Shown piece after piece: positions 1 through 32,500 of a DNA stretch of 64,000 nt. Under the pieces are notes generated by a model. The model searched no databases and had not been told where the DNA came from. It saw only the letters and a program-made list of their open reading frames with translations. The translations under genes and the position numbers were made by a program. Position 1 is the stretch's first letter. Each line of letters opens with the position of its first letter. Source of the DNA: Thermoleophilum album (GTDB taxonomy: Bacteria > Actinomycetota > Thermoleophilia > Solirubrobacterales > Thermoleophilaceae); assembly GCF_900108055.1 (NCBI RefSeq), contig NZ_FNWJ01000001.1, positions 434,001-498,000 on the forward strand, in the 5' to 3' direction.

Positions 1-107
1 TGCGACGCGAAGGGCACGAGCTCCTCGAGCTCAAACCCGCGCTCCTCCATCACGCGCAGGATCGTCTGGCCGACAGCGCCGGTAGCGCCGACTACCGCAA
101 CCCTCAT
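1..107 (-). CDS. asd: Aspartate-semialdehyde dehydrogenase, N-terminal fragment
   Basis: Only the first 35 codons lie in the window; the rest runs off the left edge. The protein opens with MRVAVVGATGAVGQ, the N-terminal Rossmann nucleotide-binding loop (GxxGxxG) typical of the NADPH-dependent enzyme that reduces aspartyl phosphate to aspartate semialdehyde for lysine, threonine, methionine and diaminopimelate synthesis. The ATG is 2 bp after the lysC stop codon on the same strand, the usual lysC-asd operon. The identification rests on a short segment plus context. Confidence 0.85.
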   Translation of the reverse strand, partial: MRVAVVGATGAVGQTILRVMEERGFELEELVPFAS

Positions 108-109
108 CG

Positions 110-1399
110 CTAGCCGCTCTCCTCGCGCGCCTGGGCGGCCCGACCGGAAGCGATCAGTGTCTCCTCGTCGGGTGGCCCCTCGCCCAAACCAAAAGCATCG
201 TGCAGCGCCCTCACTGCGCGCGGAACATCCTCTTCCCGAATCACGCAGGAGATCTTGATCGGTGAGGTCGAGATCATCTCGATGTTGATGCCTGCGTCAC
301 CGAGCACGCTGAAGGCCTTGGCGGCTACACCGGGATGGCTCTTCATTCCCGCGCCGATCAGCGAAACCGTGCCCATCCGCTCGTCGGTCGCGATCTCGCC
401 GAAACCGAGCTCCTCCCGAAGTGGCTCCAACGTCGCCCGCGCCAACTCGAGATCGGAACGGGGAACGGTGAACGACATGTCGGCCCGATGCCCCTCCGAG
501 GCCGGCTCGTTCTGAATGATCATGTCGACGTTGATCGCCCGTTCGGCCAGAGCGGTCATCACGCGACCAGCGATGCCCGGCCGATCGGGGAGACCGGTGA
601 GCGTGATCCGTGCCTCATCGGTGGAGTGCGTAACTGCGGTTACAAGCGGTCGTTCCATCGTCGTCGCCTCGTCGACAACGAAGGTACCGGGTCCGTCCTC
701 GAAGCTTGACCGACAGTGAATCGTCACGCCGTGGTTGCGCGCGTACTCGACCGAACGCAGCTGCAGTACGCGCGCCCCAGAAGCGGCCATCTCGAGCATC
801 TCTTCGAACGTCAATAGAGGCAGTTTGCGAGCGTCCGGCACGATCCGTGGATCGGCGCTGAAGACTCCGGGCACGTCGGTGAAGATCTCGCAGACCTCCG
901 CACCGAGCGCTGCAGCCAGCGCCACCGCCGTCGTGTCGGAGCCGCCGCGCCCGAGCGTGGTGACATCGAGGGAATCCTGCGACACCCCCTGGAAACCGGC
1001 CACCAGCACGATCTTGCCCTCGTCGAGGGCGCGACGAATGCGGTCCGCGCGAACGTCGATGATGCGGGCCTTCGTGTGCGTGCTGTCGGTGACGATCCCC
1101 GCCTGCGAGCCAGACAACGAGATCGCTTCGTAGCCGAGGTCGTTAATCGCCATCGCAGCCAGCGCGCACGAGATGCGCTCACCGGTGGAGAGCAGCATGT
1201 CCATCTCGCGCGGGTGCGGGCGCGACGAGACCTCGTGAGCGAGCGCGATCAGCTCGTCCGTGTGCTTGCCGCGCGCCGAGAGCACCGCGACGACCCGATT
1301 ACCCTGCGCCCGCCGCTCGGCGATGCGACGCGCGGCACGCTTGATGCGCTCAGCGTCGGCCACCGAAGTGCCGCCGAACTTCATGACGACGATCGGCAC
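110..1399 (-). CDS. lysC: Aspartate kinase
   Basis: Phosphorylates aspartate, the first step of the aspartate amino-acid family. The N-terminus carries the kinase signature KFGGTSV (residues 7-13). The amino-acid kinase fold runs to about residue 250 and is followed by two ACT domains (around 270-330 and 350-410), the normal allosteric lysine/threonine-binding region. The reading frame stays open upstream to 2059, but that part is low-complexity antisense of the divergent gene. The GTG at 1399 (V-P-I-V-V-M-K) gives 429 residues, close to the family length; an ATG at 1384 is the alternative. It is followed 2 bp later by asd. Some actinobacteria make a separate beta subunit from an internal start; I did not find decisive evidence for one here. 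Confidence 0.95.
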   Translation of the reverse strand: MPIVVMKFGGTSVADAERIKRAARRIAERRAQGNRVVAVLSARGKHTDELIALAHEVSSRPHPREMDMLLSTGERISCALAAMAINDLGYEAISLSGSQAGIVTDSTHTKARIIDVRADRIRRALDEGKIVLVAGFQGVSQDSLDVTTLGRGGSDTTAVALAAALGAEVCEIFTDVPGVFSADPRIVPDARKLPLLTFEEMLEMAASGARVLQLRSVEYARNHGVTIHCRSSFEDGPGTFVVDEATTMERPLVTAVTHSTDEARITLTGLPDRPGIAGRVMTALAERAINVDMIIQNEPASEGHRADMSFTVPRSDLELARATLEPLREELGFGEIATDERMGTVSLIGAGMKSHPGVAAKAFSVLGDAGINIEMISTSPIKISCVIREEDVPRAVRALHDAFGLGEGPPDEETLIASGRAAQAREESG

Positions 1400-20975: not shown

Positions 20976-22226
20976 TCAGCGCCTAGCCGCAAGCGGCGAT
21001 GTACCCATCAGCCCGGGTAGGCGCTCGCAGAGTCCCCGCGGCATCATGAACCAGGAGTGGTAGCGCGGCTCGTAGAGGCGCGTCTCCAGCTCCGGCTCGC
21101 GCCGCACGATCCACGGCTCCCAGCGGCGGGAGCCAATCGTGAAAGTCCACCACGCTCCGGGATATGAAGGCACGACTCCCCACGTGACCGACACCTCCTT
21201 GAAGTGTCGACCGATCGCCTCGTAGCACGCGCGCAGAGTCTCGGCATGCCACCACGCCGACTCGGTCTGCGCGCTCAACATTCCGCCGTCCGCGAGAGCG
21301 TCCTTGCAACGCGCGTAGAAGTCCTCCCCGAACAAGCGCTCGGCCGAGCCAATCGGATCGGGGACGTCGCAGAGGATCACGTCGGGACGGAAGTCGAGGT
21401 CAGCGAGGGTGTCGAAGGCGTCGCCGATGATCAGTTCGACGCGCGGATTGCCGAACGCTTCCTGGGCCACCTCGAAGTGCCTCTTCGCCAACTCGACGAT
21501 CCCGCGATCGAGCTCGAGCACGGCGACCTTCTCAATCACCTCGTGCTTGAGGACCTCAGCGAGCGTGTGACCGTCGCCGCCGCCGACGATCGCCACCGTC
21601 CTCGGCTCCGGGTGCGCGTGCAGTGGCGGATGGGCTAGCAACTCGTGGTAGACGAACGCATCACGCTCGGTTAGTTGCACGATGTCGTCGATCGCGAGCA
21701 CCCGACCGAGGCCGGGACTCTCGAAAACAGCCGCTGTCTGGTAGTCGGTGCGCACCGCCTCGAGCAGACGGCGCACCGGATAGACCGCGCGGATCGGCGA
21801 CGCCGGCTCCCGCTCCTCGAACACCCAGACTCGGTCGTCGAGGTCGGCGCGCTCGGCCGCCCCATCTTCGCCGGTGACGGTCTCGGTCTCGGGATGCACG
21901 CCACGCTCGATCGTCCGCCGCTGCGTCCAGGCAGGCCGGTACGCCTCGAGCATCACATCGATCATCGCGTCGAGATCAGTGTCGCCACAGGTGAACACGT
22001 CGACGGCCGCGTAGCCGTGCTCGGGCCACGTGTGGAGAGCGAGGTGACTCTCGGCAATCACCGCGACGCCGGAGACCCCCCAGGGCGAAAAGCGGTGCAC
22101 TTCAAGCCGGACCAGCGTCGCTCCGCCCGCCTCGACGGCGCGCCGCAGCGCAGTTCGCGCGAGCTCCTCATCGTCGAGACCTTGAGCACCCCAGAACTCG
22201 CAGAGAACTTGCCGTCCGAGAGCCAT
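20976..22226 (-). CDS. SpeD-SpeE fusion: S-adenosylmethionine decarboxylase-like + spermidine synthase
   Basis: 416 residues with two enzyme domains. Residues 1-115 are a bacterial class 1 SpeD: HRFSPWGVSGVAVIAESH with the self-cleavage pair E59-S60 (Ser becomes the pyruvoyl group), H65 in HTWPEHG and C80 in VDVFTCGD. After a linker, residues ~135-416 are an aminopropyltransferase: VFESPGLGRVLAIDD, VGGGDGHTLAEVLKH, VELDRGIVELAK-type binding strand and CDVPDPIGSAERLF, which keeps the catalytic Asp. Together it could decarboxylate AdoMet and transfer the aminopropyl group to putrescine or agmatine. ATG at 22226 follows AAAGGGGGTGA and is 3 bp after the bpsA stop. Confidence 0.92.
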   Translation of the reverse strand: MALGRQVLCEFWGAQGLDDEELARTALRRAVEAGGATLVRLEVHRFSPWGVSGVAVIAESHLALHTWPEHGYAAVDVFTCGDTDLDAMIDVMLEAYRPAWTQRRTIERGVHPETETVTGEDGAAERADLDDRVWVFEEREPASPIRAVYPVRRLLEAVRTDYQTAAVFESPGLGRVLAIDDIVQLTERDAFVYHELLAHPPLHAHPEPRTVAIVGGGDGHTLAEVLKHEVIEKVAVLELDRGIVELAKRHFEVAQEAFGNPRVELIIGDAFDTLADLDFRPDVILCDVPDPIGSAERLFGEDFYARCKDALADGGMLSAQTESAWWHAETLRACYEAIGRHFKEVSVTWGVVPSYPGAWWTFTIGSRRWEPWIVRREPELETRLYEPRYHSWFMMPRGLCERLPGLMGTSPLAARR

Positions 22227-22229
22227 CTC

Positions 22230-23207
22230 TCACCCCCTTTCCTTGCTCGCGATTGCGAAATAGTGCTCGTCGGCGATTGGGTCGCCGGGAAGCGGCCGCG
22301 GGTTGCGCGGCACGAAGCCGTCCAGCGTCTCGAGCCGCCACAGTGCCGACCGGTACCACGGTGCCTTCGCCTTCCGCTCAAAGGCGACGTGCCCGAAAGC
22401 GCGCGCCTCCTCGAGCTGCGTCGGCCAGTTTTCGTAGAAGCCTTGCTCGGGCCGGATCTGACTGATGACCACCGGCTGGGCCGCGAGCCACGCCTGTAGC
22501 TCGCGCCACTTCTCGTAGTCGGACTCGACAAGCGTCACCCCGAAGTAGCCGGCGCGACCGGCGCCGGGCGCAAGGGCCGAGAGGCCGCGGCCGACGAACA
22601 TGCGCAGACCGGCCCGCGTCTCTGAGGGATCGCAAACGAAGACGTCGTAGCGACCGCGGTGAGACCGCGGCAACGGTTTGCGCAGGTCGTGCGTGTAAAC
22701 CTCGACGGGCAGCCGATGGCGCTCCGCCAGCTCCCCGATGAAGGCCGTGAGGCGCTCGTCAATCTCGAATACCGTGACCTTCGCCGGCGCTCCGCTCAGC
22801 CCAAGGGCGATCGAAAACAGGTCGTCATCGCCCATCACGGCGATGCGCACGCCCTCAAAGAGATCGCCCCACGCGGCGAGCTCGGCCACCCGGTCCATCA
22901 AGCTCTCGAGCGTCAGGTGGCCCTGATCGAAAGCATCGGTCGCCGCGGGACGCTCGGCGGCGAGCTTGCGATATCTGCGTGCAAGCGCTGCTAGAGCGCG
23001 GCCGTCGAAACGCACGAGACGCGGCGCACGCTCGCGTCCCTCCGCGGTCAGCGTCAGGCGCCCGGGCGCAGCTTCGACGAGCCCCCGCTCCTCGAGGTCG
23101 CGCAGCATCCCGACGAGCACCGGGAACGGTACGCGTGCCCGGCCCGCCAATTCCCACGGGTCGGCGGTCTCCGCGAGCAGCGCGAGCAGGCGTTCTTCGG
23201 GATGCAG
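22230..23207 (-). CDS. bpsA: Branched-chain polyamine synthase BpsA (N4-bis(aminopropyl)spermidine synthase)
   Basis: An N-terminal winged-helix-like region (about 1-70, LVGMLRDLEERGLVEAAPG) is followed by a Rossmann methyltransferase-like aminopropyltransferase. The BpsA motifs GDDDLFSIA (126-134) and VCDPSETRAGL are present. In characterised thermophile enzymes the GDDD aspartates are catalytic, and the enzyme adds aminopropyl groups to spermidine to make branched polyamines. The strong Shine-Dalgarno AAAGGAGGTGA lies 5 nt before an in-frame CTG at 23207, which I take as start (325 residues); GTG at 23213 overlaps the SD itself, and the longer ATG at 23255 lies upstream of it. Co-transcribed with the SpeD-SpeE fusion. 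Confidence 0.88.
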   Translation of the reverse strand: MHPEERLLALLAETADPWELAGRARVPFPVLVGMLRDLEERGLVEAAPGRLTLTAEGRERAPRLVRFDGRALAALARRYRKLAAERPAATDAFDQGHLTLESLMDRVAELAAWGDLFEGVRIAVMGDDDLFSIALGLSGAPAKVTVFEIDERLTAFIGELAERHRLPVEVYTHDLRKPLPRSHRGRYDVFVCDPSETRAGLRMFVGRGLSALAPGAGRAGYFGVTLVESDYEKWRELQAWLAAQPVVISQIRPEQGFYENWPTQLEEARAFGHVAFERKAKAPWYRSALWRLETLDGFVPRNPRPLPGDPIADEHYFAIASKERG

Positions 23208-23209
23208 CT

Positions 23210-23220
23210 TCACCTCCTTT
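23210..23220 (-). promoter_or_regulatory. Perfect Shine-Dalgarno that decides the bpsA start
   Basis: AAAGGAGGTGA on the minus strand matches the anti-SD almost end to end. The GTG formed by its own last bases cannot easily serve as start; CTG at 23207-23205 sits 5 nt after the GGAGG core. Confidence 0.7.
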
Positions 23221-23235
23221 CGCGACCGAGGATGC

Positions 23236-23252
23236 GGCGGCTTCCTGCCGCC
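23236..23252 (-). promoter_or_regulatory. Hairpin in the bpsA leader
   Basis: GGCGGC and GCCGCC flank a 5-nt loop about 16 nt upstream of the bpsA Shine-Dalgarno. It could affect translation of the polyamine operon, or be a chance GC-rich stem. Confidence 0.35.
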
Positions 23253-23277
23253 CAAAGCGGGACGCCGTGACCAGCGC

Positions 23278-24469: not shown

Positions 24470-25270
24470 GTGAAGCAAGCGAACGGCGCTTCCTCTGCCC
24501 GCAGCGATGTCGAAGAACAAGCGGAGCTGACGATCGATCAGCTCGCCCAGCGTACGGGCATGACCGTGCGCAACATCCGCGCCTACCAGTCGCGCGGGCT
24601 GCTGCCACCGCCGGAGGTCCGCGGCCGCACCGGCTACTACGGACCCGAACACGTCGCCCGTATCGAGCTGATCAAGGAGCTGCAGGCGGACGGCTTCAAA
24701 CTCGACCACATCCGCCGCCTGCTAGACGGTGCCGCGGGGTCGAGTCACGAGGTCCTGCGCTTCACCCGCATGTTGAGAATGCCGTTCGGCGACGAGCGCA
24801 CGGAAGTCGTGACCGTCGAGGATCTCGCCGCCCGCTGGCGCAGCCGCGATCCGTCCTTGCTCGAGCGGGCTATTCGCCTCGGACTGCTGCGACCGCTCGG
24901 CGACGGGCGCTACGAGGACCTCAGCCCGACCCTCTCGCGCGCCGGCCAGGAACTGGTCGAGATCGGCATCCCGATCGAGGAGGCATTGGCGACCCTCGAA
25001 GCGGTCAAGCGCCACGCGGACGCCATCGCCCGCAGCTTCGTCAAGTTGTTCCTCGAGCACATCTGGTTGCCGTTCGAGCGCGAGGGCACACCGGAGGAAC
25101 GCTGGCCGGAGATCGCTGACGTGCTCGAACGGCTCCGTCCGCTCGCGCTGGAGTCGGTTATGGCGGTCTTCCGGCTGGCGATGACCGAAGCCACCGAGCG
25201 CGCCTTCGGGCGCGAGCTGCAGCGCTTCAGGCGGCGGCTGCGTGACGAAGAACGCCGAGCCCGCGCCTGA
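24470..25270 (+). CDS. MerR family transcriptional regulator
   Basis: A 266-residue regulator. The N-terminal MerR winged helix is clear (residues ~19-75): LTIDQLAQRTGMTVRNIRAY, SRGLLPPPEV, GYYGPEHVARIELIKELQ and FKLDHIRRLL. The rest is a long helical effector region without the metal-binding cysteines of CueR-type proteins, so an organic or acyl ligand is more likely. GTG start at 24470. It faces an acyl-CoA dehydrogenase gene across a bidirectional hairpin; both upstream regions contain ATGTAACA, suggesting joint control. Confidence 0.9.
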   Translation: MKQANGASSARSDVEEQAELTIDQLAQRTGMTVRNIRAYQSRGLLPPPEVRGRTGYYGPEHVARIELIKELQADGFKLDHIRRLLDGAAGSSHEVLRFTRMLRMPFGDERTEVVTVEDLAARWRSRDPSLLERAIRLGLLRPLGDGRYEDLSPTLSRAGQELVEIGIPIEEALATLEAVKRHADAIARSFVKLFLEHIWLPFEREGTPEERWPEIADVLERLRPLALESVMAVFRLAMTEATERAFGRELQRFRRRLRDEERRARA

Positions 25271-25390: not shown

Positions 25391-26653
25391 TCAGCGGATG
25401 TAGGTGCCCGAGATCGCGCGTGCGATCACGAGCCGCTGGATCTCGGAGGTCCCCTCGAAGATCGTGTAGACCTTGGCGTCGCGGTGCATCCGCTCGACGG
25501 GGTACTCGCGGGTGTACCCGTTGCCGCCGAGGATCTGCATCGCCCGCTCGGTCACCCATACGGCGACCTCGCCGGCCTTCAGCTTCGACATCGAGCCCTC
25601 GGCGTTCTGGAACTCCTTGCCGGTGCGCCCCATCCACGAAGCGCGCCACACCAGCAGGCGGGCACAGTCGATCTCCATCTTCATGTCCGCAAGCATGAAG
25701 GCGATCGCTTGGTTCTCGATGATCGGGCGACCGAACTGGACCCGCTGCTTCGCGTACTCCAGTGCGTACTCGTAGGCGGCGCGAGCGATCCCGACTGCCT
25801 GCGCGCCGACCGTCGGACGCGAAAGCTCGAAGGTGCGCATCGCCGCGTGCTGCTTCGCGCGCTTGCCTTCGCGGGCACGGGCGAGGCGCTCGTCGAGCTT
25901 CTCCTTGCCGCCTAGCAGACAGCGACCGGGGACGCGGCAGTCATCGAGGAACACCTCGGCCGTGTGCGAGGCCCGCAGACCGTGCTTCTTGAGCTTCTGG
26001 CCGGGTGTCAGACCCTTCGTGCCGGGCGGGATGATGAACGCCGCCTGGCCACGCGCTCCGAGTTCGGGCTCGACCGAGGCGACGACCACGTGCACGTTGG
26101 CGATCCCACCGTTAGTCGCCCAGGCCTTCTGCCCGTTCAGGACCCACTCGTCCTTGGCCTCGTCGTAGCGCGCTCGTGTGCGCAGTGACGAGACATCGGA
26201 GCCAGCATCCGGTTCGGAGACGCAGAAGGCGGCGACCTTCGGGTCGTCGGGCGTGCCATAGCACTGCGGGATCCATTCGGCCATCTGCTCCGGCGTACCC
26301 GAGGCGTAGATGCCGGCGACGGCGAGGGTCGTGCCCATGATCGCCATCGCGATCCCGGCATCACCCCAGAACAGCTCCTCGTTGACGATCGGGAGCATCA
26401 GACCCGTCGGGTCGGCGTAGAACTGCGCGAGCGCCTCGAACCCGTAAAGGCCGATCTTCGCGGCCTCCTGGATGATCGGCCACGGCGTCTCCTCGCGCTC
26501 GTCCCACTCGTGCGCCGCCGGCCGGATCACGTTCTCGGCGAAACCGTGGACCCAGTCGCGGATCTCGCGCTGCTCCTCAGACAGCTCCATCGAGAAAGGA
26601 GCGTCCGGTGCTTGCTTGGGAAGTGCGGATTCGATTGCGGCGGAAGCGTCCAT
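25391..26653 (-). CDS. Acyl-CoA dehydrogenase
   Basis: A 420-residue FAD enzyme that desaturates acyl-CoA. The N-terminal helical domain starts [19 protein letters not shown]. The FAD/substrate signature is [11 protein letters not shown] with [14 protein letters not shown]. The C-terminal domain carries [39 protein letters not shown] and [11 protein letters not shown] with the catalytic Glu. An insertion of charged residues near 255-275 ([20 protein letters not shown]) is a small oddity. The ATG at 26653 lies 6 nt after a good -10 box, suggesting a leaderless transcript. Confidence 0.93.
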
Positions 26654-26659
26654 GCGTTG

Positions 26660-26689
26660 ATAGTACTACACATGCTGATGTAACATCAA
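26660..26689 (-). promoter_or_regulatory. Promoter of the acyl-CoA dehydrogenase gene
   Basis: On the minus strand, -35 TTGATG (26689-26684), an 18-nt spacer and -10 TACTAT (26665-26660), with ATG starting 6 nt further. This spacing places transcription start at or next to the ATG. Confidence 0.5.
26676..26688. promoter_or_regulatory. Palindromic operator candidate TGATGTAACATCA
   Basis: A perfect 6+1+6 palindrome overlapping the -35 box of the acyl-CoA dehydrogenase promoter. A related ATGTAACA lies at 24442-24449 just upstream of the MerR gene. Binding by the MerR protein or another regulator would repress transcription here. Confidence 0.6.
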
Positions 26690-26795
26690 GCACTGCAATA
26701 TCTCGACGAAGGTCTTGCCGCTCACGAACAGCGGGCAAGTGCAAACGAAAGCGGTCGATGAACGACGGGCAACCGCAGGGGGTAAGGGTTCTGCG

Positions 26796-28820
26796 ATGAA
26801 GCGAGGGCGGGCAACGCGAGGGCGGGAAACTTCGAAGACGGGTCGCGCGGGGGTGAAGACGGACCGCGCAAGGGTGGCCACGCTGCGCCGTGCGACCGCC
26901 GCTGCGGCGAGTGCACTGGCCGCTTGCTTGGCGCTAGCAGCACCCGCTTGGGGCGGCCCTGGCAGCGCCGCGCCGTCGGCTGGCGGCGCCGCGCTCGACC
27001 AGGTCGCGATCGCCACCAGCGCTGGCCTTTTGGTGACTGGCCTACTGCTCTGGCTCGGGCTACGGCACCGTAGTGGCCGCTCGCGAGCGCTCGAGCGAGC
27101 CGCCGAGTTCGCATCCCGCCTGACCGGCATGCCCGGTTTCGTTGCCTTGCCCGCAGCGATCAGCACGATCTCCCTTCAGGCGGCGGCGCTCGGGCTGTAT
27201 TGGGACATCTCCCTGCACATCGACAACGGACGCGACCCGGGGCCGCTCGCCAACCCCTCGCACTACTTCATCCTCTTGGGGCTGCTTGGCGTCTTCGCCG
27301 CGGGCTGGCTCGCGATGGTTTTGCCGAAGGGGCGCCCCAGCCCGGCCGCGGTGCGCCTGGCAGGCGACTGGTGGGCACCGCTTGGGGGCATCCTGCTGGC
27401 AGCCTGCGGATCGTTCGCGCTGCTTGGCTTCCCACTAGACGACATCTCGCACCGACTGTTCGGTCAGGACGTCACCTTGTGGGGACCGACCCACTTGATG
27501 ATGCTGGGCGGCGCGGCGATGAGCCTCGTCGCGATGCTGGTGCTCTTCACCGAGGGCCGACTGGCACTGCGCTCGGCCAGCGCGGCAGAGCCCCCGCCGG
27601 TGCGTGCCGGTCGCGTGCGTTTGACGGCCGAACGGCTGCGTCGGATCCGCTTGATCTTCACGAGCGGCGGCCTGCTGATCGGTCTGTCGATCTTCCAGGG
27701 CGAGTTCGACTTCGGCGTGCCGCAGTTCAACCAGCTCTTCCAGCCCGCGCTGATCGCCCTGGCGGCTGGCTGGGCGCTTCTGTGTGCGCGGCTGATCGGC
27801 GGCCGCGGTGCGTCGTTCGCGGCGGTCGGCCTGTACTTGCTCGTCCGCGGCGCCCTGTCGGCGATTGTCGGTGGCGTCTTCGGCGAGACACTCCCGCACT
27901 TCCCCCTTTATCTGGCGGAGGCAGCGGCGGTCGAACTCGCTGCGCTGGCCGTCGGCACCCGCCGTCCCTATCGCCTCGCGCTGGTGGCCGGCCTTTCGAT
28001 CGGCACCGTCGGAACGGTGGCGGAGTACGGCTGGTCGCACGTCTGGATGCCACTCCCGTGGCCGGCGGCCGTGTTTCCCGAGGTCTTGGTGGTGGGCGTC
28101 GTCGGCGGTGTCGCCGGAGCGATCGTCGGTGCTTTCACCGCTTCCGGCGTGCGCCTCGATCCGCGCAACGTCGCGGCGCCGCGGCCGCTGGCCCTGGTCG
28201 TCGCGGCAGCGCTGGCGGTCGGTGGGCTCTTCGCCTACCTCGGGTCGACCACTGCACCGCGCAACGCACGTGTCCTGGGCACGATCGAGCAGACCACTGC
28301 CGGACCGACGCGCGAGGGCTACCTGACCGTGCGAGTCGTGCCAGCCTCTTTGGTGAAAGACCCCAACTGGTTCAACGTGACCTCGTGGCAAGGGCGCACC
28401 CACCTGCGTCTGACCCGGCTCGTACAGGTGGCACCGGGCATCTGGCGAAGCGAACGACCGGTACCGCTGAGCGGACACTGGAAGTCGATGATCCGCTTCC
28501 ACCAGGGGCGCACGCTCGCCGCCGTCCCCGTCTATTTGCCGGCTGATCGAGCAATCCCTGCACCCGAGGTACCGGCGAGTGGGCGCTTCGACCGCGCCTT
28601 CGTACCCGACCGCCAGGTTCTGCAGCGCGAGCGCAAGCGCGACGTGCCGGGTTGGCTTTGGGGTACGGCCGGAGCGATCGTACTGATGCTTTCGAGCCTG
28701 CTGCTGGCGGCACTGGCCGGCGGACTCGTGCGGCTTTCGCGGGCCGAACTCCAGCGGGTGCAAAAGTCGGGCGCCAGCGCCAAGCCAGTGACCCCGACGG
28801 CAACCACTGTCAGCCGGTGA
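26796..28820 (+). CDS. Uncharacterised polytopic membrane protein with extracytoplasmic C-terminal domain
   Basis: A 674-residue protein: basic N-terminus, a signal-like helix (AASALAACLALAAPAWG), then about eleven to twelve hydrophobic segments. Polar motifs are embedded in or next to helices: LYWDISLHIDNGRDPG, NPSHYFILLG, DDISHRLFGQD and LWGPTHLMMLGG, all rich in His and Asp and suggestive of metal or proton handling. Residues ~510-620 form a predicted beta domain (GYLTVRVVP, WKSMIRFHQGRTLAAVPVYLP) reminiscent of FixH/YtkA-like modules, followed by one last membrane helix. Function not recognised. ATG at 26796 follows GGGGGTAAGGG. The next gene begins 11 bp downstream. Confidence 0.75.
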   Translation: MKRGRATRGRETSKTGRAGVKTDRARVATLRRATAAAASALAACLALAAPAWGGPGSAAPSAGGAALDQVAIATSAGLLVTGLLLWLGLRHRSGRSRALERAAEFASRLTGMPGFVALPAAISTISLQAAALGLYWDISLHIDNGRDPGPLANPSHYFILLGLLGVFAAGWLAMVLPKGRPSPAAVRLAGDWWAPLGGILLAACGSFALLGFPLDDISHRLFGQDVTLWGPTHLMMLGGAAMSLVAMLVLFTEGRLALRSASAAEPPPVRAGRVRLTAERLRRIRLIFTSGGLLIGLSIFQGEFDFGVPQFNQLFQPALIALAAGWALLCARLIGGRGASFAAVGLYLLVRGALSAIVGGVFGETLPHFPLYLAEAAAVELAALAVGTRRPYRLALVAGLSIGTVGTVAEYGWSHVWMPLPWPAAVFPEVLVVGVVGGVAGAIVGAFTASGVRLDPRNVAAPRPLALVVAAALAVGGLFAYLGSTTAPRNARVLGTIEQTTAGPTREGYLTVRVVPASLVKDPNWFNVTSWQGRTHLRLTRLVQVAPGIWRSERPVPLSGHWKSMIRFHQGRTLAAVPVYLPADRAIPAPEVPASGRFDRAFVPDRQVLQRERKRDVPGWLWGTAGAIVLMLSSLLLAALAGGLVRLSRAELQRVQKSGASAKPVTPTATTVSR

Positions 28821-28831
28821 AGGAGGCGCCG

Positions 28832-28981
28832 ATGCTCGTCCTGCCGATCGCGCACCACGCTCTTGTCGAGGGGCTCGCGTTCGCGATACCAGGGCTCTTG
28901 ATTCCCGCCGTGCTGGCGGTGATGGTGCTGCGCGATCGTGTCCGAGAGTGGCGCACCGGCGCCGGGGGGAAAGCGCGTTGA
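28832..28981 (+). CDS. Small single-helix membrane protein
   Basis: 49 residues, MLVLPIAHHALVEGLAFAIP and then a hydrophobic continuation and a basic tail. A strong AAGGAGG Shine-Dalgarno lies 6 nt before the ATG. It sits 11 bp after the large membrane protein gene and its stop overlaps the next start as TTGA, so it belongs to a three-gene operon. Function unknown. Confidence 0.7.
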   Translation: MLVLPIAHHALVEGLAFAIPGLLIPAVLAVMVLRDRVREWRTGAGGKAR

Positions 28982-29388
28982 CCGGAACGCCCGACGCAAC
29001 CTGCGACGGGTCGAACCGCGCCCAGGGTCGACTCGCTTCGGTGCCATTGGTGCGGGTGCTCGCGCTGTTGGTCGCCTTGGCGATGGCGGTGGGTAGCGCC
29101 GGGCTCTGGATCGCAACACCGCTGGCAGCGCTCTGGGTGGGCTCGCGGGTGCAGGCCGCGACGGGATCGATGGGGAGCGCCCTGATCGTCGCCTTCGCGG
29201 TCGCCGCCGCGACCGCGATTGCACTCGCCCTGGCGCTCGCCCGCCTCGACCAGGCCTACCGAGCTTTGCGCGGCGGACGCAGCGCCCTCGAACGGATGCT
29301 GGTCATCTCCGCGGCGATCGCCGTTACCGGCTTCACAATCTGGTTCTTCGGCTTCGCCGGTCCGGGGCCGTTGATCGCTCCCCGCTAG
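28978..29388 (+). CDS. Small integral membrane protein
   Basis: 136 residues from TTG 28978 with about three hydrophobic segments (LVRVLALLVALAMAVGSAGL, a second over VAFAVAAATAIALALAL, a third at the C-terminus VISAAIAVTGFTIWFFGFAG). Start codon TTG overlaps the preceding stop; a GGGGGGAAAG lies upstream. The C-terminal pattern is seen in small proteins of unknown role. Likely works with the two genes before it. Confidence 0.65.
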   Translation: MTGTPDATCDGSNRAQGRLASVPLVRVLALLVALAMAVGSAGLWIATPLAALWVGSRVQAATGSMGSALIVAFAVAAATAIALALALARLDQAYRALRGGRSALERMLVISAAIAVTGFTIWFFGFAGPGPLIAPR

Positions 29389-29456
29389 CTGCGCCGGCCG
29401 CCGCCCGGCGACAGATCGGTCGGACCGGCGACAGGTCGGCGCAACATCGCAACTGC

Positions 29457-29485
29457 TTGCGTAAAGCCGCAATGCGTGGTACAAA
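29457..29485 (+). promoter_or_regulatory. Promoter candidate for the secreted repeat protein
   Basis: -35 TTGCGT (29457-29462), 17-nt spacer, -10 TACAAA (29480-29485). Transcription would start near 29492, about 100 nt before the chosen TTG start. Confidence 0.45.
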
Positions 29486-29588
29486 CCGTGTAGGCAGGAA
29501 CCCCACCCGGTCGACGCGGCTTGCACCGCCGGTCGATCGGTCAAGCAACCACCCCACGCAACACCCCAAGCAGCCACGGAGGACAAGG

Positions 29589-32500
29589 TTGAGGCAAGGC
29601 ACCCCCTGGACGGGCAGGACTACCAGTTGTTGGCGCCGCGCGCGACTCCTTCTCGCTCTCGTCTTGTCCGCCGCGGGGTGGTCGGCTTTTGCTGCCTCCG
29701 CGCATGCCGCAGTGTCGATCAGTTCGCTGACCGTCAACCCCTCGACGCCGCAAGCGAACTCGCATCCCAATTTGACGGTCGCGATGGGCTTCCAGTACTC
29801 GCCCTCGAGCGATGACCTCAAAAACCTGACGATCACGCTTCCGCCGGGCCTGGTCGGCAACCCCCGGGCGCTGCCACAGTGCAGCTCTAGCCAGTTCGCA
29901 GCCGATAACTGCCCGAGCCAAAGCGCCGTCGGCAGCACCTCGGTTCGCACCGAAGTAAGCGGCGTGCCCCTGGTAAGCGCGCTCGACGCGAGTGGAACCG
30001 TCTACAACCTCCAACCTCAGCCCGGTGAGCCGGGACGTCTGGGCGTGATCGTCCGGCCATCGTTTCCGCTCGCCACCATCGACAAGATCTTCCTGCAAGC
30101 GCCGATCGTCGTGCGTCCAGATAAGGACTACGCACTCGAGACGACGATCTCGAACATCCCTCGACAGACTCGGGTGGTTGTAGGACTCGTGCCGACAACG
30201 GCCGAGATCACGATCACTCAGATGAGCCTGACTCTCAACGATCAGGTCAACGGCCAGAACTTCCTGACGATGCCGTCGAGTTGCGCTACGGGAAACCTCG
30301 CGGCCCAGGCGAGTTCGTGGGACCAGGCGTCCGTTATCGCCACGCGCAGCGCCACGATCACCCCGAGCGGCTGCGGATCGCTCGCCTTCAACCCCGGGTT
30401 TGCCTTCTCCGTTCAGACCACGCGCGCCGAGACCCCGACGGGAGCCGACGTACAGATCACCTTGCCGGCCGACAGTCCGACCCTGAAGAGCGCCGTCGTG
30501 ACGCTCCCGACCGGTATGACCATCAACCCAGCTTCGGCTGACGGACTGACCGCTTGCACCGACGCCCAGTTCGGGGTCGGGTCGAACAGCGCCCCAACGT
30601 GCCCGTCAACCTCGCAAGTCGGGACCGTACAGTTCGACACGCCGCTGCTCGGCCTACTCAGCGGCTCCGTCTTCTTCGCGCAACCGACGCCTTCGCGGCC
30701 GTGGGGGCTATTCGTTGCGATCGCGGGACCGGGCTTCTACGCGAAGCTCGTCGGCAACGTCGCGATCGACGAGCAGACCGGTCGCGTGACGACCACCTTC
30801 GACGGCCTGCCGCAAGTCCCGTTTACGAGCTTTCGCTTGATCTTCAACGGTGGCGACCGCGCGCTTCTAACCACGCCGAGCAGCTGCGGCGCCGCGCAGG
30901 CACAGGCGCAACTCACACCCTGGAGCTCGGCGAGCGCGGTCAGTCGAGGCGCCTCAATCACTGTCAGCTGGGACGGCGCCGGCGCTGCCTGCCCCGACCC
31001 TCGCCCCTTCTCGCCGGGGTTGGCTCTGACGCTCTCCGACACGAGCGCAGCTGCCAATCCCGCGATGACGCTTGCCGTCACACGGCCCGACCGAGACCAA
31101 CCGCTGCGCGACCTGCGCGTCTCGCTGCCGCCCGGCCTACTGGGGTATCTCGCGATGCCCGGCCTCGACCTCTGCTCGAACGCCGACGCGGTGGCGGGTA
31201 ACTGCCCGGCGAGCTCGCGCGTCGGATCGGTGACCGTGCAGAGCGGACCAGGTAACGCGCCCGTAACGCTCTCCGGCAGCGTTTACCTCACACAGCCGTC
31301 GCGACCCGGAGCGATCGCCGGCTTGTCGGTCGTGATCCCCGCACAGGTCGGCCCCGTCGACCTCGGGCGGGTGATCGTCGCCAACGCGCTCGTCCTGCGA
31401 CCGGGCGACTTCGGGCTCGACGTCGAGAGCGACCCCTTGCCGACCATGCTGCGCGGCATCCCGCTCGCTGTGCGATCGCTGACAATCACGCTCGACCGGC
31501 CTGGCTTCCTGCGTAACCCGACGCGTTGCGGCGACCTCCAGGCGAACGCAACACTCGGGGCCAGTGACGGCCGCACGGTGCAACGCCCGGCGAGCGTCAC
31601 GATCTCCGGTTGCGACGGTCTGCCCTTCGCTCCGTCGCTCGACGGGACCCTCGGCAGCGCCGACAACGTCGGCGGCGGAGCGCTCGGCGTGCCGCTCACC
31701 ACGCGCATCACTCTGCCCGCGGGCAACGCAGCACTCAGGCGCGTGCGAGTGCAGCTGCCAGGCTCCTTGGTTCCCGACATCACGGCGATCTCGCGCACCT
31801 GCCCGATCGCACAGGTGACGGCTGGAACCTGCCCGGACACCGCCAAGGTCGGGACCGCACGGGTCGTGACGCCGCTGCTCGCGCTCCCGCTTGAAGCGCC
31901 CGTGTTGCTGGCCGAGAATCCGGGGGGCCTGCCCCGTCTCGCGGTGCCGCTCCTGGGGACGGTGCTCCACGGCGACGTAAGCCTCGACGGCGGAAAGATC
32001 GCGACGACCTTCGACAATCTCCCGGACATCCCGCTTTCGAGCTTCGAGCTGGCGATCGCAGGCGGACCGAACGGTCTCTTGCGCGCACCACAGACGATCT
32101 GCGCACCGAACGACGCGACCGCCGCGGCCGTCCTCGACGCGCACAGCGGTGGGTCGGTCGCGCTCACGCGCGCCCTCACCCGCCCCGACTGCACGGCGCC
32201 AACCGGCAACATCGGTCAAAACGGCGGAACGCAAGGCGGTCCGCCGTCCGCCGGTGGCTCGGGACAAGCGAATCGCGGCGGGGCACGGCGCGCTGCCATG
32301 CGCCCCACCGTGAGGGGCTCGCTCGTAGTGCGTCGCGGGCTCGCAACGCTGAGCCTGAGCGTGCGCCAACCGGCGAGCCTGCCGGCCCTCGGACGCGTGC
32401 GGATCGTCTTGCCGAGATCCCTGCGACCGACACGAGGCGTGCGCCCCGTCGCTCGGGCACCGCGCCGGCTCGCCGCGCGCGCAGTCAGCGTGCGTGGGCG

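Follow-up and report, generated by a model that had tools for sequence, protein, structure and literature searches.

Introduction

Copper membrane monooxygenases (CuMMOs; pMMO, AMO and HMO) are encoded by three-gene xmoCAB operons, and the available sections of PMC9038741, PMC12533140 and PMC10030591 describe canonical enzymes composed of separate subunits. It is debated which of the copper sites in particulate methane monooxygenase (pMMO) is catalytic; the accessible part of PMC12576850 presents CuD as a recent proposal, with D156, H160 and H173 as the CuC ligands, N227, H231 and H245 as those of CuD, and R165 nearby. According to an excerpt of PMC9038741, the CuD site is not universal among archaeal CuMMOs. 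Here we describe P0001, a 674-residue membrane protein encoded in a 64,000-nucleotide stretch of Thermoleophilum album DNA (contig NZ_FNWJ01000001.1, positions 434,001 to 498,000; hereafter the window), which we consider fairly likely to be a putative catalytic core and to represent an undescribed branch of CuMMO relatives. The genome holding the window comprises 2.2 Mb in five contigs.

An initial annotation of the window had taken this protein and two small genes behind it for a three-gene membrane operon, either a novel transporter or an oxidase-related assembly complex. Profile and structure comparisons favour a CuMMO relative over a transporter or a part of a heme-copper oxidase; the transporter or assembly reading is not the best one because the conserved residues of P0001 coincide with CuC and CuD ligands. 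In the open-licence literature, preprints aside, we found no report of an actinobacterial CuMMO relative fused in this way.

Results

The core gene was read as follows, its start codon being uncertain since the reading frame is already open from a TTG at 26715.

26796..28820, + strand: core gene P0001, open reading frame of 674 residues; predicted fused PmoC-like and PmoA-like membrane protein with a FixH-like domain
26973..27599, + strand: N-terminal half (residues 60-268), PmoC/AmoC-like copper-site module, from the AlphaFold model, structural matches and hhalign
27204..27263, + strand: site 1, D137-x3-H141-x4-R146-D147-x8-H156, counterpart of PmoC CuC (D156, H160, H173; R165)
27438..27494, + strand: site 2, D215-x3-H219-x13-H233, counterpart of PmoC CuD (N227, H231, H245)
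27591..28244, + strand: second membrane half (residues 266-483), suggested PmoA-like fold, from VIA-align
28248..28631, + strand: extracytoplasmic FixH/Ig-like beta domain (residues 485-612) without an H-x-H copper motif, from the AlphaFold model and its matches
28650..28766, + strand: C-terminal transmembrane helix (residues 619-657), from the AlphaFold secondary structure

The polytopic protein and its motifs LYWDISLHID, NPSHYFILL and LWGPTHLMML are present at 26796-28820 on the + strand as the initial annotation had them, and the role in metal handling that it read from the clusters of His and Asp gained support, as these residues coincide with the CuC and CuD ligands of PmoC/AmoC. The clusters rank among the most conserved positions of the family: across 109 aligned homologues, W136, D137, H141, R146, D147, H156, D215, D216, H219 and H233 are identical in all, as are the run G223-W229, P231 and T232. 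D137, H141 and H156 keep all three CuC positions, and D215, H219 and H233 stand at the PmoC spacing of CuD with Asp in place of Asn. The core family and PmoC, of which an actinobacterial representative carries NQDGSWHQTAVRDTALTPAHIPMF and MNEWGHSLWITEEIFAVPFHWPF, thus have in common the pattern D-x3-H-x4-RD-...-P-x-H, followed by [N/D]-x3-H-x13-H. Divergent members of the core family, for example with DVAWHIDLGRDKELFTPAH ... PLDELWHRAYGIDVTMWGPTH, come nearer to the FTPSH of PmoC and share the TPAH/TPSH context. The double motif was found in 111 of 112 core-family proteins (a list that includes partial sequences) and in 9/9 PmoC/AmoC proteins. It was found in none of 1,135 neighbouring proteins and in none of 24,940 residue-shuffled proteins, controls that measure rarity and do not give an unbiased P value because the pattern was written after both families had been seen.

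The AlphaFold model of P0001, computed with 48 homologues, has many transmembrane helices, a predicted local distance difference test score (pLDDT) of 89.4 and a predicted template modelling score of 0.88; the N-terminal half modelled alone reached a pLDDT of 91.2. The top matches of this half were the PmoC chains 7s4m_C and 7s4h_C (Z 10.3, 175-179 of 209 residues). Seven more PmoC/AmoC entries matched as well, namely 9cl2 (Z 9.8), 7yzy (9.6), 9cl6 (9.6), 9cl1 (9.5), 7s4l (9.4), 9leg (7.2) and 9pxf (7.2). The PmoC/AmoC matches span 169-179 of the 209 residues, and PmoC/AmoC fill ranks 1, 2 and 4-8. Residues 7..209 of the N-terminal half align to 86..279 of 7s4h_C, with offsets of 79 and 70 at the two ends; the ligands fall into register at offsets of 78 (D137, H141, R146) and 71 (D215, H219, H233), within one residue of those end offsets.

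For the profile comparison, divergent members were collected by a search of a phylum sample with the core-family alignment. Of 15 open reading frame hits, 4 were omitted from the profiles as fragments or frame pieces (L179, L180, L183), and the ten-member profile additionally omits L191. Aligned by hhalign to PmoC, these ten members matched with P 1.4e-6 and a probability of 90% over 115 columns, with both sites in register, while the best value among control profiles (48 neighbourhood families, 7 of them with at least three transmembrane segments) was P 0.012. The full family together with the divergent members matched PmoC with P 0.00096, and its match became significant only once the divergent members had entered. 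Some short divergent members of 329-376 residues (L179:7792-8922, L181:7732-8817, L182:612-1601) are without the beta domain, which marks the membrane part as the conserved core; they are a possible minimal form linking the core family to PmoC.

The comparisons show that the N-terminal half of P0001 is homologous to PmoC, with all CuC and CuD ligand positions kept. Ligand pattern and order of sites are shared with PmoC/AmoC/HmoC (PF04896), and the overall fold of this half is similar; P0001 differs by the Asp for the CuD Asn, by two extra residues in the loop of site 1, by carrying a further membrane half and a beta domain in the same chain, and by lying under Pfam detection.

Several observations weigh against a CuMMO relative. 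The full family alone compared with nine PmoC/AmoC sequences gave only P 0.06 (hhalign), and there was no match to the Pfam families AmoC, AMO or Monooxygenase_B in 48 core-family members or in 6 divergent ones. Foldseek alone found no match at E <= 0.001 for the whole or the N-half model. The best unrelated match of the N-terminal half was a designed helical protein (Z 9.9, 140 residues), and since helical bundles can reach this range, the Z values of the N-terminal half are not decisive on their own. By profile, a PmoA sequence match was sought for the second half and not found (P >= 0.087). The locus holds no PmoB-like gene or CuB histidines, the neighbours of the core gene vary between loci, and one plasmid copy lies in a copper-resistance island, described below. 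The weak full-family scores and the middling Z values of helical bundles would suit a convergent resemblance to PmoC in an unrelated polytopic metalloprotein such as a transporter. We nevertheless regard convergence as highly improbable, as it would have to produce motif order and spacing, the Arg-Asp pair, the TPAH/TPSH context, the P value of 1.4e-6 against its controls and a match to a second pMMO subunit, a joint outcome that is unlikely by chance.

That second match concerns the other membrane half. The best VIA-align match of the whole model was 7ev9_B (Z 13.0, root-mean-square deviation 3.6, 180 residues, model residues 266-650; the next entry had Z 7.9), a chain identified as PmoA by its length, its numbering and the PDB sequence listing. 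The model thus suggests that the second half is PmoA-like, and therefore that a single chain unites the counterparts of two membrane subunits. To PmoA/AmoA (PF02461) this half is alike in fold, without significant sequence similarity and without being a separate subunit; E303-F-D305 resembles D47-W-D49 of PmoA, a motif matched by 2 of 3 PmoA sequences, and the likeness is only suggestive.

An extracytoplasmic beta domain resembling FixH/YtkA had been proposed for P0001, and this holds up as a modest resemblance: the domain matched a chain of the cbb3-2 "NOH" complex with Z 7.5, and profile matches were weak (FixH, best E 0.65, in 2/48 members; YtkA, E 0.28, in 1/48). P0001 has a FixH-like domain and is no FixH protein. 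PmoB/AmoB (PF04744) likewise contributes a beta domain on the extracytoplasmic side of a membrane complex, whereas P0001 carries a single FixH/Ig-like domain, which lies at its C-terminus and lacks the H-x-H found at CuB. A search of 199 genomes of the class with PF04744 detected no gene, but control genomes were equally silent.

The core family matched no known one. P0001 and the two small proteins encoded behind it, P0002 and P0003, reached the cut-off of no family in Pfam or NCBIfam; the best NCBIfam match of P0001, below cut-off, was heme A synthase (E 0.066). Scanning each of 48 core-family members against Pfam returned weak scattered matches only, and PDB sequence searches with the single sequence and with the family returned nothing useful. 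The clear match to a known transporter or assembly family that would have refuted the initial annotation was accordingly absent from the Pfam, NCBIfam and PDB sequence searches. PF04896 had no match in the T. album genome, and a search of viral contigs for PmoC relatives found none.

Homologues of P0001 share about 40-73% identity and were matched in 25 of the 199 class genomes and in 43 of the 396 genomes of the phylum sample. For genomic context, 80 of 221 named loci found were kept. By record title all of these are actinobacterial except "Bacterium HR41", for which no phylum is given, and they include Solirubrobacterales, Actinomadura, Saccharopolyspora, Pseudonocardia and many mycobacteria. 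T. album has a second core copy on another contig (L127:9496-11688, 43% identity), which by our reading of the open reading frames lies between a TetR-like gene and leucyl-tRNA synthetase; the small partner gene was not detected beside it.

A general respiratory function would hardly lead one to expect the core to be absent from most genomes of the class and of the phylum sample, a point that bears on whether P0001 might be an accessory or assembly complex of a respiratory oxidase. The FixH-like beta domain with its cbb3-2 match would suit such a role, as would the gene for an oxidase subunit III that the plasmid island contains and the position, in some genomes, of a partner protein (LAHGLGG, below) near the genes for caa3 CtaG and SCO1. 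The conserved ligands and the N-terminal half, however, match PmoC and no oxidase or assembly factor, and we consider a role in oxidase assembly improbable.

Two small genes follow the core gene.

28832..28981, + strand: P0002, small partner of 49 residues with a single transmembrane helix, A-x-H before the helix and RDR after it
28948..29388, + strand: P0003, third small membrane protein, start GTG 28948 or TTG 28978

The coupled 49-residue gene with a strong Shine-Dalgarno sequence was correctly recognised in the initial annotation: the ATG of P0002 is preceded by AAGGAGG, P0003 overlaps P0002, and the alternative start TTG 28978 overlaps the P0002 stop. Of 112 loci, 73 have a member of the P0002 family next to the core (47 downstream, 26 upstream), often with a 4-base overlap, and most members carry A-x-H ahead of the helix and RDRR behind it. 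P0002 is not a chance open reading frame because it is kept beside the core in this way. The proposed operon is real and P0002 is a conserved partner in it, whereas P0003 is not a conserved part: its homologues were found only in L004 and L174, of the host's genus, and in the near relative L033. We rejected P0003 as a component of the system and regard it as peripheral.

Further partners were found in the context of the core gene. A polytopic protein, here called LAHGLGG, was present in 56 of the 80 named loci and a cupredoxin lipoprotein in 38; in L099 and L191 core, small transmembrane protein, cupredoxin and LAHGLGG form one tightly packed operon. In T. album, cupredoxin and LAHGLGG lie together at C1:525550-527324 (L126:8548-10475), about 65 kb from the operon in the window. 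Conserved residues are H117, H119, E148 and H150 (H-x-H...E-x-H) in the cupredoxin and H26, H374, H430 and H438 in LAHGLGG. LAHGLGG belongs to no known family and occurs in 72 of the 199 class genomes, among them 24 of the 25 that have the core; this association has p 3e-11 over the class and 0.026 within the order, values uncorrected for relatedness. Where cupredoxin and LAHGLGG occur away from the core, genes for SCO1, PCu(A)C or caa3 CtaG stand close by in several stretches; the pair therefore probably handles copper and is by itself a candidate for copper supply.

The arrangement of one fused gene with small transmembrane, cupredoxin and LAHGLGG genes contrasts with the xmoCAB operon. The hmoCAB operon, for example of Mycolicibacterium chubuense NBB4, is also actinobacterial and is followed by a gene for a small "LAHGG..." single-helix protein similar to P0002 in plan, but it encodes three separate subunits including PmoB, and its annotated stretch has no cupredoxin plus LAHGLGG. 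Single-helix "LAHGGQ" proteins, annotated as hypothetical, close actinobacterial hmoCAB operons at L116:7225-7440, L196:6678-6974 and L197:6744-7001. A comparison of P0002 with the small HMO protein gave 9 bits in a two-sequence database, so that we speak of a parallel and not of homology. pMMO likewise has a separate cupredoxin accessory, PmoD (available text of PMC6189053), where the CuA-forming motif is Cx7MxHxnC as against H-x-H...E-x-H here.

Upstream of the core gene the following features were identified.

26676..26688, strand not assigned: palindrome TGATGTAACATCA, candidate operator between the acyl-CoA dehydrogenase gene and the core gene
25391..26653, - strand: acyl-CoA dehydrogenase, divergent neighbour across the palindrome (NCBIfam models, best E 7e-91, below their cut-offs)
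24470..25270, + strand: MerR-family regulator (PF13411, E 1.7e-22), candidate regulator of the core gene

The palindrome TGATGTAACATCA has its sole copy in the 2.2-Mb genome here; 0.02 matches would be expected in the window, which has 1. With up to 2 mismatches allowed, 18 of 112 loci, a set that includes near-duplicates, have a copy close to the start of the core gene, and 1.33 Mb overall contain 26 copies. Those close to the core start lie mostly 17-40 bases upstream, at 154 bases in two loci and 70 in one, and 23 bases downstream in one. MerR relatives adjoin the core in L175, L176, L177 and L051, and the MerR neighbour is the likely binder of the palindrome. An Rfam scan of window positions 26000-30000 gave no match.

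In the stretches around the 80 named loci, acyl-CoA dehydrogenases were found in 8, short-chain dehydrogenases/reductases in 27 and MerR regulators in 12, and an alpha/beta hydrolase or aldehyde dehydrogenase lies near the core in some. Such enzymes suit the oxidation of an organic substrate, though no neighbour is universal. A link of T. album to growth on alkanes would be speculation: a protein of the fatty-acid desaturase family scored best with a fatty-acid desaturase model, below cut-off, and no alkane-hydroxylase model was among the matches of the host P450. Elsewhere in the window (20976-23255), a branched-chain polyamine synthase gene (BpsA; PF01861, E 1e-66) stands beside a gene that by eye resembles a fused SpeD/SpeE, an arrangement typical of thermophiles.

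Copper partners and neighbouring enzymes both bear on the main rival explanation, that P0001 is a copper-handling protein, one that binds, imports or stores copper or delivers it to cuproenzymes, which inherited a PmoC-type site and is no oxygenase. LAHGLGG and cupredoxin also occur without the core, close to genes for SCO1, PCu(A)C and caa3 CtaG; of the 199 class genomes, 72 have LAHGLGG and 25 the core. CopC/CopD adjoins the core in L171, where it sits between core and LAHGLGG. On a plasmid of M. vanbaalenii JOB5 (L128), the copper island that holds the core also encodes CopC, CbtA, DUF305, a regulator of the CopY type and subunit III of a heme-copper oxidase, and the same stretch has a LAHGLGG protein 33% identical to that of T. 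album. The L171 and plasmid contexts also count in favour of the CuMMO-like reading. A simple carrier, however, would have no need to keep both copper sites, the Arg-Asp pair by site 1 and a PmoA-like half, nor do the acyl-CoA dehydrogenase, short-chain dehydrogenase/reductase or hydrolase genes at many loci and a dedicated candidate operator that is unique in the genome favour copper handling, which we judge rather unlikely.

Discussion

P0001 is probably an unrecognised copper enzyme, and most likely a putative single-chain, PmoB-less CuMMO-like oxygenase for a hydrophobic substrate. We do not file it as a CuMMO member because it matches no curated profile and lies at a locus with neither PmoB nor an xmoCAB operon. 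More specifically, and with due reserve, we propose as quite possible a new copper monooxygenase lineage in which the functions of PmoC and PmoA are fused, PmoB with its CuB site is absent, and membrane-soluble substrates (alkanes, terpenes or lipids) are oxidised at a CuC/CuD-type site.

In such an enzyme, the PmoC-like helices would bind copper at their extracytoplasmic end, and the copper would then be reduced; the reduced copper would activate O2 and hydroxylate a hydrophobic substrate within the membrane. The FixH-like domain would end the fused chain in place of PmoB, and P0002, with its 49 residues and single transmembrane helix, may act as an accessory subunit. Copper, electrons or both could be delivered by the cupredoxin lipoprotein and polytopic LAHGLGG, and products may go on to the dehydrogenases and hydrolases often encoded nearby. 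Expression would be controlled through the dedicated palindrome, probably by way of the MerR neighbour.

A relative that has the CuC and CuD ligands in all aligned members and no CuB subunit makes the question of the catalytic site testable in a single polypeptide. If the proposed reading is true, CuB is dispensable for CuMMO-type chemistry, and the known range of copper oxygenase chemistry widens to thermophiles, mycobacteria and soil actinobacteria, in which annotation by profiles overlooks the core family entirely. P0001 would then be a simpler model for one of the hardest oxidations in biology, that carried out by the methane- and ammonia-oxidising enzymes.

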